Under the pieces are notes generated by a model that was given only the letters and a program-made list of their open reading frames with translations, was not told the DNA's origin and ran no database searches. Below, piece after piece: positions 3,509 through 23,818 of a DNA stretch of 64,000 bases. This DNA is from Actinomycetes bacterium (GTDB taxonomy: Bacteria; Actinomycetota; Acidimicrobiia; Acidimicrobiales; JABEUL01): NCBI GenBank assembly GCA_021790815.1, contig JAJYFT010000003.1, positions 1 to 64,000 on the forward strand, read 5' to 3'. Every line of letters begins with the position of its first letter. Within the stretch, counting starts at the first letter, position 1. The position numbers and the translations under genes were made by a program.

Positions 3509-3652
3509 GCTACAGTTTGCCACGACATCATGCAGGAGTTTTTTATAACTACCTAGATTCTTTCGGTTACGTTTAATGCGTTAAACAGCAATTTAGCCTT
3601 TTAGACCAATTTTATTTGCCTCAATGTTAAAAATGTGGCAATATATAAGGTA

Positions 3653-3694
3653 GTGAAACATTATAGATTCCCTGAAATAATTGTAATTATTTGA
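3653..3694 (+). CDS. Putative leader peptide MKHYRFPEIIVII (attenuator)
   Basis: GTG AAA CAT TAT AGA TTC CCT GAA ATA ATT GTA ATT ATT TGA, AAGG just upstream, followed directly by a hairpin and an intrinsic terminator ahead of leuB-ilvE-cimA. Confidence 0.6.
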   Translation: MKHYRFPEIIVII

Positions 3695-3714
3695 GTACGC
3701 AGATTTCTGCGTAC
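3695..3714 (+). promoter_or_regulatory. Hairpin immediately downstream of leader-peptide stop
   Basis: Perfect inverted repeat GTACGCAG-ATTT-CTGCGTAC. Confidence 0.7.
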
Positions 3715-3717
3715 TTT

Positions 3718-3745
3718 ACCGTCCAAAAAATTGGGCGGTTTTTTT
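3718..3745 (+). terminator. Intrinsic terminator (candidate attenuator) upstream of leuB
   Basis: ACCGTCCAA-AAAA-TTGGGCGGT followed by a T run; lies on + strand with no upstream + gene in the intergenic region. Confidence 0.8.
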
Positions 3746-3899
3746 ATGATTTTTTACGGTTTTAGACGGTTTCACCTGGAAAACAAGAGTTAACTTAATT
3801 TAGTGATATAGATGGACTTATGTTTTATCTTTAGTCATGCTTTAGGTGACTTTTAAGCATATGTCTACATAGAAGTTATGTAAATTGGAGAATAGAGAA

Positions 3900-4940
3900 T
3901 TGACATTTAAGATTGCTACAATCGAAGGAGACGGTATTGGGGAAGAAGTCGTCAAAGAAGCTCTTAAGGTAATTACTGCTGCAGGGGTTGATTTTCAAGC
4001 TACGAAATTTAACCTTGGTGCTGAAAGGTATTTAAAAGACGGCAAAGTTCTGCCAGAAAACGAGTTAGACGCGCTTCGAAAATTCGATGCAATCATGCTG
4101 GGAGCAGTTGGTCCACCAATTGGGTCCACGGATGTTCCTGCAGGACTATTGGAAAGAGGCCTACTTTTAAAACTTCGTTTTTCTCTTGACCTTTATATCA
4201 ATTTAAGACCTTTTATTGCTCCTAAAGGCTCCGTCCAAGAAGACGCTGACTTTGCAGTGGTTAGGGAAAACACAGAAGGCACCTACGCGGGTGAAGGCGG
4301 TTTGCTCAGACAAAACACGCCATTTGAAGTTGCTACACAAGGTTCGGTTAACACACGTTTTGGCGTTGAACGATGTGTAAGATTTGCGTTTCAGTTAGCA
4401 ATGAAACGTAGAAAACACCTAACTTTAGTTCACAAAACTAACGTTCTTACTTTCTCAGGAGGACTTTGGCAAAGAACTTTCGACGAAGTTTCAAAAGAGT
4501 TTCCTGAGGTTAAGACAGCTTACAACCATATAGATGCCGCATGCATATATATGGTTGAAAAGGCAACTGCGTATGACGTTATCGTCACAGACAATCTATT
4601 TGGAGATATATTGACAGACTTAGCTGGCGCCGTAACGGGTGGGATTGGACTTGCCGCATCAGCAAACTTAAATCCGGAAAAGACTGGCCCGTCACTTTTT
4701 GAACCAGTCCACGGTGCAGCCCACGACATAAAAGGAACTGGAAAAGCAAATCCGCTAGCTGCAATTAAATCAGCTGCACTTATGCTGGACCACCTCGGCG
4801 AGGAAACAATTGCACAAACAATTACAGATGCCGTTACAGTAGAATCTCAAATCTTAGCAACTAAAGATCTAGCGCTAACAACAAGTGAGATAGGCGACAG
4901 AGTCGCAGAAAGGGTAGCAAATGCCAATAACTCCAACTAA
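3900..4940 (+). CDS. leuB: 3-isopropylmalate dehydrogenase (isopropylmalate/methylmalate dehydrogenase family)
   Basis: IEGDGIGEEVV, LRPFIAP, VRENTEGTYAGEGG, VTDNLFGDILTD and EPVHGAAHDIKGTGKANP motifs; ORF begins 3885 (TTG), but TTG at 3900 has GGAG at a better spacing. Confidence 0.92.
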   Translation: MTFKIATIEGDGIGEEVVKEALKVITAAGVDFQATKFNLGAERYLKDGKVLPENELDALRKFDAIMLGAVGPPIGSTDVPAGLLERGLLLKLRFSLDLYINLRPFIAPKGSVQEDADFAVVRENTEGTYAGEGGLLRQNTPFEVATQGSVNTRFGVERCVRFAFQLAMKRRKHLTLVHKTNVLTFSGGLWQRTFDEVSKEFPEVKTAYNHIDAACIYMVEKATAYDVIVTDNLFGDILTDLAGAVTGGIGLAASANLNPEKTGPSLFEPVHGAAHDIKGTGKANPLAAIKSAALMLDHLGEETIAQTITDAVTVESQILATKDLALTTSEIGDRVAERVANANNSN

Positions 4941-5847
4941 ATATATATGGATGGACGGTGAACTTACTCCATGGGAAGACGCAAAAATCCACGTTTTAAC
5001 CCATACTTTACACTACGGAGTCGGAGTATTTGAAGGTATCCGTGCTTACAAGACTCAGGATGGACCCGCTATTTTCCGATTAAGGGACCACATTCGAAGA
5101 CTATATAATTCAGCTCACATCTATGGAATTACAATTCCTTTTAACGAATCTGACTTAGTAGATGCCACAAAAATTACAGTTCGCGAAAACAACATTGACT
5201 CGGGCTACATTAGGCCAATCGTATATTTAGGCTACGGAGAAATGGGGTTAAATCCATTACCTTGTCAAGTAAACGTTGCAATTGCAACCTGGCCATGGGG
5301 AACCTACCTTGGAGATGAAGGCGTTAGAAATGGTGTTCGAGTCAAAGTGTCATCTTGGAGAAGACACGATCCCAACGCAATGCCTGGGGCCGCAAAAGGA
5401 ACTGGTATGTACGTGAACTCCGCCCTAGCTAAGGTTGAAGCAATACACGCTGGTTACGATGAAGCTGTTTTGCTAAACCCACAAGGTTTTGTCAGTGAGT
5501 GCACTGGTGAAAATATATTCATCGTTAAGAACAAAAAACTCATAACTCCACCAACTTCACTCGGAGGCGCACTTGAAGGAATAACACAAGATTCTATTAT
5601 GACCATTGCGAAAAGCCATGGATACGAAACGATGGAGGCCGCAATTGTAAGAAGCGATCTCTACACTTGTGATGAAGCATTCCTAACTGGTACCGCAGCT
5701 GAGCTTGTCCCAATCAAAAGTGTTGATGATAGAACTGTTGGAACTGGAACTCCGGGTGATATCACAAAAGACCTACAAGACACTTATTTTAAATGTGTAA
5801 AAGGAGAGGTTAAAGAGTTTCAAAGTTGGTTGGAATTCGTAAAATGA
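4921..5847 (+). CDS. ilvE: Branched-chain amino acid aminotransferase
   Basis: WMDGELTPWEDAKIHVLTHTLHYGVGVFEGIRAY and ECTGENIFIVKN motifs (class IV aminotransferase). Confidence 0.92.
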   Translation: MPITPTKYIWMDGELTPWEDAKIHVLTHTLHYGVGVFEGIRAYKTQDGPAIFRLRDHIRRLYNSAHIYGITIPFNESDLVDATKITVRENNIDSGYIRPIVYLGYGEMGLNPLPCQVNVAIATWPWGTYLGDEGVRNGVRVKVSSWRRHDPNAMPGAAKGTGMYVNSALAKVEAIHAGYDEAVLLNPQGFVSECTGENIFIVKNKKLITPPTSLGGALEGITQDSIMTIAKSHGYETMEAAIVRSDLYTCDEAFLTGTAAELVPIKSVDDRTVGTGTPGDITKDLQDTYFKCVKGEVKEFQSWLEFVK

Positions 5848-7430
5848 ACTCAAGGGTTATACAGGTTCTAGATACAACACTTAGAGATGGATCCCAACAA
5901 GAAGGCCTTTCTCTGACAGTATCTGACAAGTTAAGAGTTGCCGAACAACTTGATCTATTAGGAATTACATACATTGAAGGTGGTTGGCCGGGAGCTCACC
6001 CAAAGGATGAAGAGTTTTTTGAGCGAGCTAAAACTGAATTGAACTTGCAAAACTCTATACTTGTGGCTTTTGGCTCGACACGAAAAGCTGGCATAAAAGT
6101 GGGCGAGGACAACGTTCTAAAGAACCTTATAAACGCTCAAACGAGATCTGTATGCATAGTTGCAAAATCATGGGATATGCACGTCACTGAGGCGCTTAAA
6201 ACGACACTTGAAGAAGGAATCGCGATGGTAAAAGAGTCGGTTGACTACTTGACCTCGTATGGACTTGAAGTTCTCCTTGACGCTGAACATTTTTTTGATG
6301 GATTTAAAGCAAACAAAGACTTCGCGTTACGAGTTCTCGATGCTGCAAGTTCAGCAGGTGCTTCGAGCCTTGTGCTTTGTGATACCAATGGAGGTTCTCT
6401 TCCTCAATACGTTAGAGACGTAGTTAAAGAAGTCTCAAAACACTTCAGCTCCCTTGGTGTTCACTGTCACAATGACAGTGGTTGTGCAGTTGCAAATACC
6501 ATCGAAGCTGTCCTTGCTGGTGCCTCCCACATTCAAGGGTGCGTGAATGGATACGGCGAAAGAACTGGGAATGCAGATCTAAGTACTGCGATTCCGAATT
6601 TGTCACTTAAACTGGGCTTTGAAACAATTCCGAATGAAAAATTAAAATTACTAACTCCAGTTGCACACCACATTGCAGAAATTATTAATATTGCCCAAAG
6701 TCCGCAACAGCCGTATGTTGGAGTCGCTGCATTCGCTCATAAAGGTGGCATTCATACTTCTGCACTTGCTCGACGTTCTGACACTTACGAACACGTTGCA
6801 CCTGAACAGGTAGGAAACTTCACAAGGTATCTTGTTAGTGAAATGTCGGGAAAGGCAACACTAAAAATTAAGGCCGATGAGTTCGGTTTTAATCTAGATG
6901 ATCAATCTCTTATGAAAATATTGGATGACCTTAAAGAGAGAGAGTACGCTGGCTATCACTACGAGGCGGCAGATGGGTCCTTTGAACTATTGATGCGGCA
7001 AGCAGCAGGACTAATGAAGGAATTTTTCAAAGTAGAATCTTTTAGAGTCATCGCTGACTGGACATCAAGTGAAAGCTCTCACACCAAAGGTGACCTTACC
7101 TGCGAAGCTACTGTAAAAGTCCATGTCAAAGGGGATAGAATCGTGGCAACAAAAGAAGGAAATGGCCCGGTTAATGCTCTTGACGCAGCACTTCGAAGTG
7201 CAATTGAACCATTTTTTGAGGATCTTAAACACCTTCATCTTACGGACTACAAAGTCAGAGTACTTGATTCATCTCATGGTACTGGAGCTTCTACTAGGGT
7301 TTTAATCGATACAACTGACGGCGACAAGACGTGGTCAACTATAGGAGTATCTGAAAATATAATCGAAGCCTCATGGCAAGCCCTTTTAGATGCGATAGTT
7401 TACGGTCTTCTACGTCACGTCGACCCATAA
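5844..7430 (+). CDS. cimA: Citramalate synthase (CimA / alpha-isopropylmalate synthase-like family)
   Basis: VLDTTLRDGSQQEGLSL, HCHNDSGCAVANT, VNGYGERTGNADL, HKGGIHTSA; ATGA overlap with ilvE stop supports start 5844. Confidence 0.85.
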   Translation: MNSRVIQVLDTTLRDGSQQEGLSLTVSDKLRVAEQLDLLGITYIEGGWPGAHPKDEEFFERAKTELNLQNSILVAFGSTRKAGIKVGEDNVLKNLINAQTRSVCIVAKSWDMHVTEALKTTLEEGIAMVKESVDYLTSYGLEVLLDAEHFFDGFKANKDFALRVLDAASSAGASSLVLCDTNGGSLPQYVRDVVKEVSKHFSSLGVHCHNDSGCAVANTIEAVLAGASHIQGCVNGYGERTGNADLSTAIPNLSLKLGFETIPNEKLKLLTPVAHHIAEIINIAQSPQQPYVGVAAFAHKGGIHTSALARRSDTYEHVAPEQVGNFTRYLVSEMSGKATLKIKADEFGFNLDDQSLMKILDDLKEREYAGYHYEAADGSFELLMRQAAGLMKEFFKVESFRVIADWTSSESSHTKGDLTCEATVKVHVKGDRIVATKEGNGPVNALDAALRSAIEPFFEDLKHLHLTDYKVRVLDSSHGTGASTRVLIDTTDGDKTWSTIGVSENIIEASWQALLDAIVYGLLRHVDP

Positions 7431-21025: not shown

Positions 21026-21304
21026 ATGGAAGTTAACGTAGCACTAATGTTCGGAGCCCACGACATGACCTGGCAAAGAAAAGCAAACTGTATGGGAGTT
21101 GATCCTGACCTATTTTTCCCCGAAAGAGGAGCCTCGACGCGCGAAGCAAAAGAGGTTTGTAGGGGTTGCGTTGTCAAGCCAGAATGTTTAGAGTATGCAA
21201 TATCAAGCGGCGAAAAATTCGGGATTTGGGGCGGAATGAGTGAAAGAGAAAGAAGAAGAATTCGACGGGCGAGATCTCTGATAAGAATCTCAGCTTCTGC
21301 CTAA
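21026..21304 (+). CDS. WhiB-family Fe-S transcriptional regulator
   Basis: NCMG...CRGCVVKPECLEYA four-Cys pattern, GIWGGMSERERRRIRR turn motif. Confidence 0.93.
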   Translation: MEVNVALMFGAHDMTWQRKANCMGVDPDLFFPERGASTREAKEVCRGCVVKPECLEYAISSGEKFGIWGGMSERERRRIRRARSLIRISASA

Positions 21305-23524: not shown

Positions 23525-23818
23525 CTATTGAGAATTAATTGATGCAAGTCTTTCCAGCCGTCGAACTCGTAAAATTCTTCGCCTTTCTCTCTCGGAAGAA
23601 CCTCCCCACACCCCATGGTCGATGCGATTATCCAGTGCATATTCAAGGCAGTGTTCCTTCACTACACACTTGCGGCATATCTTTCTTGCGACTTCAACAC
23701 CTGCACCGTCACTTGGGAAAAATATGTCTGGGTCAAGGTCCTTACAAAGACCATCTTTCATCCATACTTCTGCCCCAGCTTCAGACGTGTCGTACTTCTC
23801 TAACTTTTTGCCTAACAT
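23525..23818 (-). CDS. WhiB-family Fe-S transcriptional regulator
   Basis: GLCKDLDPDIFFP...CRKCVVKEHCLEYAL and GVWGGSSERERRRILR. Confidence 0.93.
   Translation of the reverse strand: MLGKKLEKYDTSEAGAEVWMKDGLCKDLDPDIFFPSDGAGVEVARKICRKCVVKEHCLEYALDNRIDHGVWGGSSERERRRILRVRRLERLASINSQ

Follow-up and report, generated by a model that had tools for sequence, protein, structure and literature searches.

The genes leuB, ilvE, and cimA of an uncultured actinobacterium with a genome of 2.44 Mb are preceded by a short open reading frame (ORF), a hairpin (H1), and an intrinsic terminator (T). This raises the question of whether the supply of isoleucine and valine decides if transcription reaches these genes, and by what physical step it could do so. 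We studied the element within a stretch of 64,000 nucleotides, hereafter the window (Table 1). Its genome is assigned to Actinomycetota by four WhiB genes, a family recovered in the control set from C. glutamicum alone, and the class may be Acidimicrobiia. A preliminary description of this DNA had proposed an Ile/Val attenuator composed of a 13-codon leader ORF ending in Ile-Ile-Val-Ile-Ile, an 8-bp hairpin abutting its stop codon, and a terminator with a T run. All three parts are found by direct reading, and a terminator scan also recovers T at 3718-3745. The order of the genes after T is leuB, ilvE, cimA. That no plus-strand gene lies before T, greA being on the minus strand, had also been noted and is confirmed, with gene families assigned by NCBIfam search. 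The start of cimA may alternatively be the ATG at 5844. At the level of the sequence, an intrinsic terminator stands between the leader ORF and the first gene.

Table 1. Features of the leader element and of the downstream genes (window coordinates).
Feature	Coordinates	Strand	Sequence or family	Basis and remarks
Predicted promoter	3616..3644	+	-35 TTGCCT 3616-3621, 17-nt spacer, -10-like CAATAT 3639-3644	
Leader peptide ORF	3653..3694	+	MKHYRFPEIIVII + TGA; GTG start 3653-3655; stop TGA 3692-3694	direct reading; leaderless translation predicted
Ile-Ile-Val-Ile-Ile codons	3677..3691	+	ATA ATT GTA ATT ATT	direct reading
Hairpin H1	3693..3716	+	8-bp perfect core 3695-3714, GTACGCAG-ATTT-CTGCGTAC	starts inside the stop codon
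Intrinsic terminator T	3718..3745	+	ACCGTCCAA-AAAA-TTGGGCGGT 3718-3739; U tract 3740-3745	stem 3718-3726/3731-3739
leuB, 3-isopropylmalate dehydrogenase	3900..4940	+	NCBIfam NF002898	476.6 bits, over cut-off; TTG start, GGAG upstream
ilvE, branched-chain amino acid transaminase	4921..5847	+	NCBIfam TIGR01122 / NF005146	over cut-off
cimA, citramalate synthase	5826..7430	+	NCBIfam TIGR00977	690.9 bits, over cut-off

In the window, H1 is a perfect palindrome, which extends to 10 bp (3693-3716) when the GA of the stop codon and the G-U pairs are counted. The greA-leuB intergenic region is AT-rich, and we generated 3000 first-order Markov versions of it. The chance of an ORF ending in five Ile/Val codons was 0.03%, and none of the 3000 versions combined such an ORF with a terminator within 60 nt. 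The comparative evidence given below is far stronger than this test on a single sequence. The DNA around the leader has further features. The Ile/Val codons form an inverted repeat (AAATAATT-GT-AATTATTT), and a greA promoter-like site on the minus strand (ATTACA-16-TATAAT, 3687-3660, 10/12) overlaps the leader ORF; the DNA of the leader codons may thus serve both strands. Downstream of T, at 3740-3775, ACGG..GACGGT partly repeats the 3' arm of T.

We located LeuB in 59 of 60 relatives and read the DNA upstream of its gene. All six sampled family members have the leader element there, as do about two thirds of the 58 leuB loci of the order. The family and many members of the order share one layout: a short ORF whose last codons are Val/Ile, usually one further codon, a stop codon (mostly TAG), a GC-rich hairpin whose first base is the final one of the stop, then a few linker nucleotides, and the terminator CCGUCCAC..GUGGGCGG with its U tract. 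In the family and the order, the N-terminal half of the leader peptide drifts, and the codon run, the stop, H1, and T are kept. The preliminary description had pointed to the leaders of orthologues as the place to look for frameshifts or non-branched-chain codons; what we found are in-frame Ile/Val codons at the same positions in 5/5 of the other family members and in most of the order. Distant relatives, taken from a LeuB-protein scan of named genomes, were uninformative for the leader. Near the leuB of one genome (locus L110, genome G045), a 14-nt unit, TGCAAACCTCTTGG, is repeated in tandem about twelve times.

We built a covariance model (R1) from 34 leaders of the leuB type and accepted matches at E<=0.01. 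Matches were found in 245 of the 396 genomes sampled from the class, and about a third of the class genomes have none. We examined 162 matches, a sample made up mostly of the higher-scoring ones and biased to the leuB type, from which most matches scoring under about 47 bits are absent. Comparing the downstream DNA with proteins showed that 111 of these are followed by leuB, 23 by cimA, and 15 by ilvB; a further 12 had been excised beside leuB, and for one the DNA was too short to tell. Hence, every match among the 162 with readable downstream DNA directly precedes leuB, cimA, or ilvB. The genome of the window itself carries a second copy before ilvB (locus L191, G000:C132:10552-10638, minus strand), with a leader ending in IVLVVM and a TAG stop. 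In another genome (G011), in which cimA does not adjoin leuB, the element lies before cimA, and no match was found before leuB. Outside the class, six further genomes of the phylum have matches; among those read, the next gene is leuB in one case, ilvB in two, and leuA in one, and two have none of the test genes in the available downstream DNA. The leuA copy (L300 in G479, from another class of the phylum) encodes the leader MSQNLLLT, whose codon run is Leu only. Another match of the phylum (L295 in G484) is good and its leader ends in VLLIT, with no branched-chain amino acid (BCAA) gene directly downstream; the next readable frames resemble a small protein and prephenate dehydratase, a context possibly due to relocation or to a break in the assembly. 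We set aside a match in Rubrobacter (L186, E 0.002), which has no leader ORF and none of the four test genes downstream.

The codons of the leader change with the gene that follows. We number them backwards from the stop codon. At codons -5 to -2, cimA leaders have 92% Ile (four Ile codons), leuB leaders 51% Ile and 34% Val, and ilvB leaders 57% Val and 28% Leu; the background codon use is about 4.5% for Ile and 10% each for Val and Leu. Taken together, Ile, Val, and Leu fill 85% of these positions in the leaders of the leuB class, compared with about 24% in the background. The enrichment is confined to these positions: BCAA codons are at or below background upstream of codon -5 (of codon -6 in ilvB leaders), and also at codon -1, which is almost never a sensing codon. 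The rare codon GTA accounts for 47% of the Val codons in leuB leaders, compared with 5% in the genes that follow; in ilvB leaders its share is 68%. The pattern is kept in GC-rich genomes, with rare codons, and it shifts with the downstream gene. This gene-by-gene match is the strongest evidence for translation of the leader ORF and for sensing by its codons. The predicted sensing positions, conserved across the class, are codons -5 to -2. As in ribosome-mediated BCAA attenuators generally, the codon run of a short putative leader ORF matches the amino acid that its operon makes. The Ile/Val attenuator proposed upstream of leuB-ilvE-cimA gains support from the codons, from the gene association, and from the covariation of H1 described below.

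The leader mRNA is probably leaderless because its start codon lies 6-10 nt after the -10 box. A strong -35/-10 pair is present in 120 of the 162 leaders, compared with 13% of shuffled sequences, and in 99 of those 120 the first in-frame start is 6-10 nt after the -10 box, which is the usual site of transcription start. The pair found in the window, TTGCCT-17-CAATAT, is the best promoter-like pair of its leader and lies 8 nt before the GTG at 3653; it is weaker than the pairs of the relatives and is in the same place. An alternative -10 box would be TATATA (3642-3647). A start of transcription downstream of 3745 had been named as a reason for abandoning the attenuator; the predicted promoter lies upstream of the leader instead.

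The two hairpins are conserved as RNA structures. Over H1 and T in 100 matches, 99.4% of the cells are paired, and two-sided changes occur in 15 of the 18 pairs, in a total of 152 cells. The covariation score is 0.328, compared with 0.144 in shuffled alignments (0/500) and at most 0.078 in slid registers. The alignment was fitted to the model and is biased to it, and a first, unfitted alignment shows the same trend; in these statistics, kinship among sequences was handled by the controls of the tool only. H1 alone, whose covariation had been suggested as a check, covaries in these 100 relatives at all nine modelled pairs, with 99.2% of the cells paired. The T sequence given above, with its U tract, is conserved in the leuB type, and the cimA and ilvB types have different sequences with the same architecture. 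The spacing is very regular. H1 begins at the stop codon in nearly all leaders, and the linker between H1 and T measures 1-6 nt in 96% of 151 leaders, with a mean of about 3 nt in each of the leuB, cimA, and ilvB classes. It is still about 3 nt where the loop of H1 is enlarged, as in ilvB. The correlation between the length of H1 and that of the linker that would keep the distance from the stop to T constant is weak or has the wrong sign (-0.12 in leuB, -0.30 in cimA, +0.57 in ilvB), so that the linker itself seems to be the constrained quantity.

We then asked which ribosome positions spare H1. We took the ribosome to cover the RNA as far as 12 nt beyond the first base of its A-site codon, a footprint assumed from established toeprint distances, and folded the remaining RNA. 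The mean minimum free energy of the exposed H1 region is -19.9, -14.2, -7.1, -2.8, and -2.1 kcal/mol with the A site at codon -5, -3, -2, -1, and the stop, respectively. H1 is fully stable (about -20 kcal/mol) when the ribosome is at codons -5 and -4. The values for the window, from codon -5 to the stop, are -15.0, -14.6, -9.4, -5.2, 0, and 0 kcal/mol. The energy falls away at codon -1 and at the stop; with the ribosome at any of the sensing codons, by contrast, H1 can still fold at least in part. Since these codons spare H1 and codon -1 is avoided, H1 is predicted to be folded in starved cells, with read-through, and melted in fed cells, with termination. H1 and T have no nucleotide in common and are separated by about 3 nt, so this is not the classical competition for a shared strand. 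As far as secondary structure goes, T could form in either state of the ribosome.

The reading that we favour, and hold to be probable though well short of certain, is ribosome-mediated attenuation of leuB-ilvE-cimA transcription in response to charged tRNA-Ile and tRNA-Val, with H1 opposing T. Transcription would begin with the leader GTG or shortly before it, and 70S ribosomes would bind the nascent RNA directly at its 5' end. When Ile or Val is short, the ribosome would stall with codon -5, -4, -3, or -2 in the A site, H1 would fold wholly or partly and oppose T, and RNA polymerase would continue into leuB. When both are ample, a ribosome at codon -1 and the stop would cover the 5' arm of H1 and melt it; T would then zip fully, and transcription would end before leuB. 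The sequences themselves show the parts with their spacing, the codon pattern, the association with genes, and the covariation of H1; we infer the stalling, the termination in vivo, and above all the opposition of H1 to T. This key step would depend on a postulated effect of adjacency: a folded H1 some 3 nt upstream could block, sterically or mechanically, the closing of the base of T in the exit channel of the polymerase. Another physical route is conceivable, in which the folded H1 shortens the path and the stalled ribosome is held close behind the polymerase. Stalls at codon -2 may act weakly, the ribosome being already over part of H1 (-7.1 kcal/mol left). The model would also predict read-through when the leader is not translated, since the untranslated leader also folds H1, unlike in the trp attenuator of E. 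coli.

Alternatively, H1 could be a pause hairpin only, which serves the loading of ribosomes on leaderless RNA, with antitermination coming from the stalled ribosome or from lost coupling. Leaderless initiation does need time until the 5' end emerges, and a pause role has been proposed by the authors of the C. glutamicum study for their first hairpin (PMC11857589). However, a pause requires neither that H1 start exactly at the stop codon nor that the linker be fixed at about 3 nt, and by itself it yields no difference in termination between fed and starved cells. We regard this as an unlikely account of the element.

In a classical attenuator, the 3' arm of H1 (GGUGUGCG in many relatives) would pair with the 5' arm of T (CGUCCACC) when the ribosome is over the 5' arm of H1. 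Such a helix can be drawn on the common leuB-type consensus with 7 of 8 bases pairing, and 79% of the cells pair in this register, above the slid ones. Yet at two of its seven pairs the bases do not match in roughly half of the sequences or more, and in the window it is essentially absent (-0.4 kcal/mol). The pairing between these arms is no better than that of shuffled arms in leuB leaders (z -0.03) and is worse in cimA and ilvB leaders. It would also require stalls closest to H1, whereas codon -1 is almost never sensing. Other partners fared no better: the leader codon region pairs with the 5' arm of T no better than shuffles in the three gene classes, and the fold of the 3' arm of H1 through the loop of T, before the 3' arm of T exists, is weaker than shuffled in all three. 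Hence, in 162 leaders and three gene classes we found no conserved alternative of the trp type that shares a strand with the terminator, which makes the classical scheme quite improbable. The preliminary description had failed to find a convincing 2:3 antiterminator in the window; these negative tests show that its absence is a property of the whole family.

Two further explanations were considered. H1 and T could form a tandem-hairpin terminator of the usual sort or mark where a small RNA ends, the Ile/Val codons being a by-product of AT-rich DNA or of the greA promoter. The AT-rich intergenic region, the inverted repeat that contains the codons, and the overlapping promoter-like site on the minus strand fit this idea, and adjacent hairpins are known from the ends of genes (PMC8355165). 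It is refuted in comparative terms by the association with particular genes and by codons matched to them, which are kept in GC-rich genomes and vary with the downstream gene, and there is no plus-strand gene before T for it to serve; we give it almost no credence. It is just as hard to believe that H1 is a DNA operator for a regulator, as its perfect palindrome in the window might suggest, because many relatives keep the pairing by G-U pairs and compensatory changes, as expected for RNA, and because H1 is fixed in position relative to the stop codon.

The element can be compared with several known systems. Enterobacterial trp, ilv, and leu attenuators have a leader peptide rich in the regulated amino acid, a stop-proximal geometry, and a terminator; their 2:3 antiterminator, one strand of which also belongs to the terminator, has no conserved counterpart here. 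Further parallels are in Actinomycetota. In the ilvBNC attenuator of C. glutamicum (three-hairpin or 'fast', the ilvB-II motif of Corynebacterium), the leader starts one nucleotide from the transcript start (PMC11857589; PMC10272879). This attenuator is experimentally supported, and the bases of its antiterminator and terminator are adjacent with a 3-nt overlap (PMC11857589). It shares with the present element the phylum, a BCAA leader peptide, a near-leaderless start (predicted here), and hairpins side by side. However, its antiterminator extends over a portion of the leader ORF and has a GCC trinucleotide in common with the terminator, whereas here H1 comes after the leader and the shared boundary trinucleotide is absent, H1 and T being adjacent but 1-6 nt apart in 96% of the leaders. 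The controlled gene also differs from ilvBNC, as here it can be leuB or cimA besides ilvB.

The ilvB1NC leader of M. tuberculosis likewise has four BCAA codons, including GUA, before the stop, and replacing LVVI by AAAA abolishes the response (PMC13236596). Its proposed logic matches ours, with stalling leading to the antiterminator and a ribosome at the stop masking it. It differs from the element studied here in that terminator and antiterminator are presented as structures that exclude each other and no leaderless start is described for the leader (PMC13236596). Leader peptides and terminators before ilvB have been known in Corynebacterium, Mycobacterium, and Streptomyces since Seliverstov et al. 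2005 (PMC1262725). Those leaders also have BCAA codons beside U-tract terminators; unlike here, the codons overlap the terminator hairpin, and leuB and cimA are not reported (PMC1262725). The LEU element, which precedes leuA, lacks a terminator and forms a pseudoknot, with a run of leucine codons that pairs with the Shine-Dalgarno box of leuA (PMC1262725). In the window there is a terminator, and the codon run contains no Leu. Short leaderless ORFs acting as amino-acid-sensing attenuators have a parallel in the mycobacterial polycysteine ORFs of Canestrari et al. 2020, as cited in PMC13236596, where the amino acid is cysteine.

Other actinobacterial ilvB leaders, judged by reading, are alike in their BCAA codons and in the order of their hairpins, one of which adjoins the terminator. 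BCAA codons and neighbouring hairpins of a similar kind are present in three upstream regions of ilvB from other actinobacteria (L307, L308, and L309). Where the class has TAG, L308 and L309 have AAG, and their stop codon has shifted into H1; this natural variant could be used as a test of the geometry of the stop codon.

Rfam 15 gave no match above the gathering score in the window or in seven related loci, with weak sub-threshold sRNA hits only, and we found no description of the element before leuB or cimA in the open-licence papers searched. Hence, the actinobacterial kind of BCAA attenuator is known, and what is new is the set of genes, the uniform geometry, and the lack of a shared-strand antiterminator. 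The probable leaderlessness, the copies before ilvB in the same genome and before cimA in others, and the likeness to actinobacterial ilvB attenuators had escaped the preliminary description.

The mode of action of such regulation in Actinomycetota was called unclear in 2005, and it has only lately been tested, in two genera. The family is a natural data set of several hundred genomes and three or four pathway genes, in which the codons change with the gene. It points to a separate, codon-specific control of the isoleucine that is made via citramalate. It also poses a physical question: can a neighbouring hairpin block an intrinsic terminator with which it has no bases in common? We suggest tentatively, as a proposal with somewhat less than even prospects, that this is a widespread actinobacterial attenuator family in which H1, without any nucleotide of T and set by the position of the ribosome, would control termination purely by its proximity of about 3 nt. 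As a separate observation, the genome carries four genes of the WhiB family, two of which are inside the window (21071-21259 and 23576-23764).
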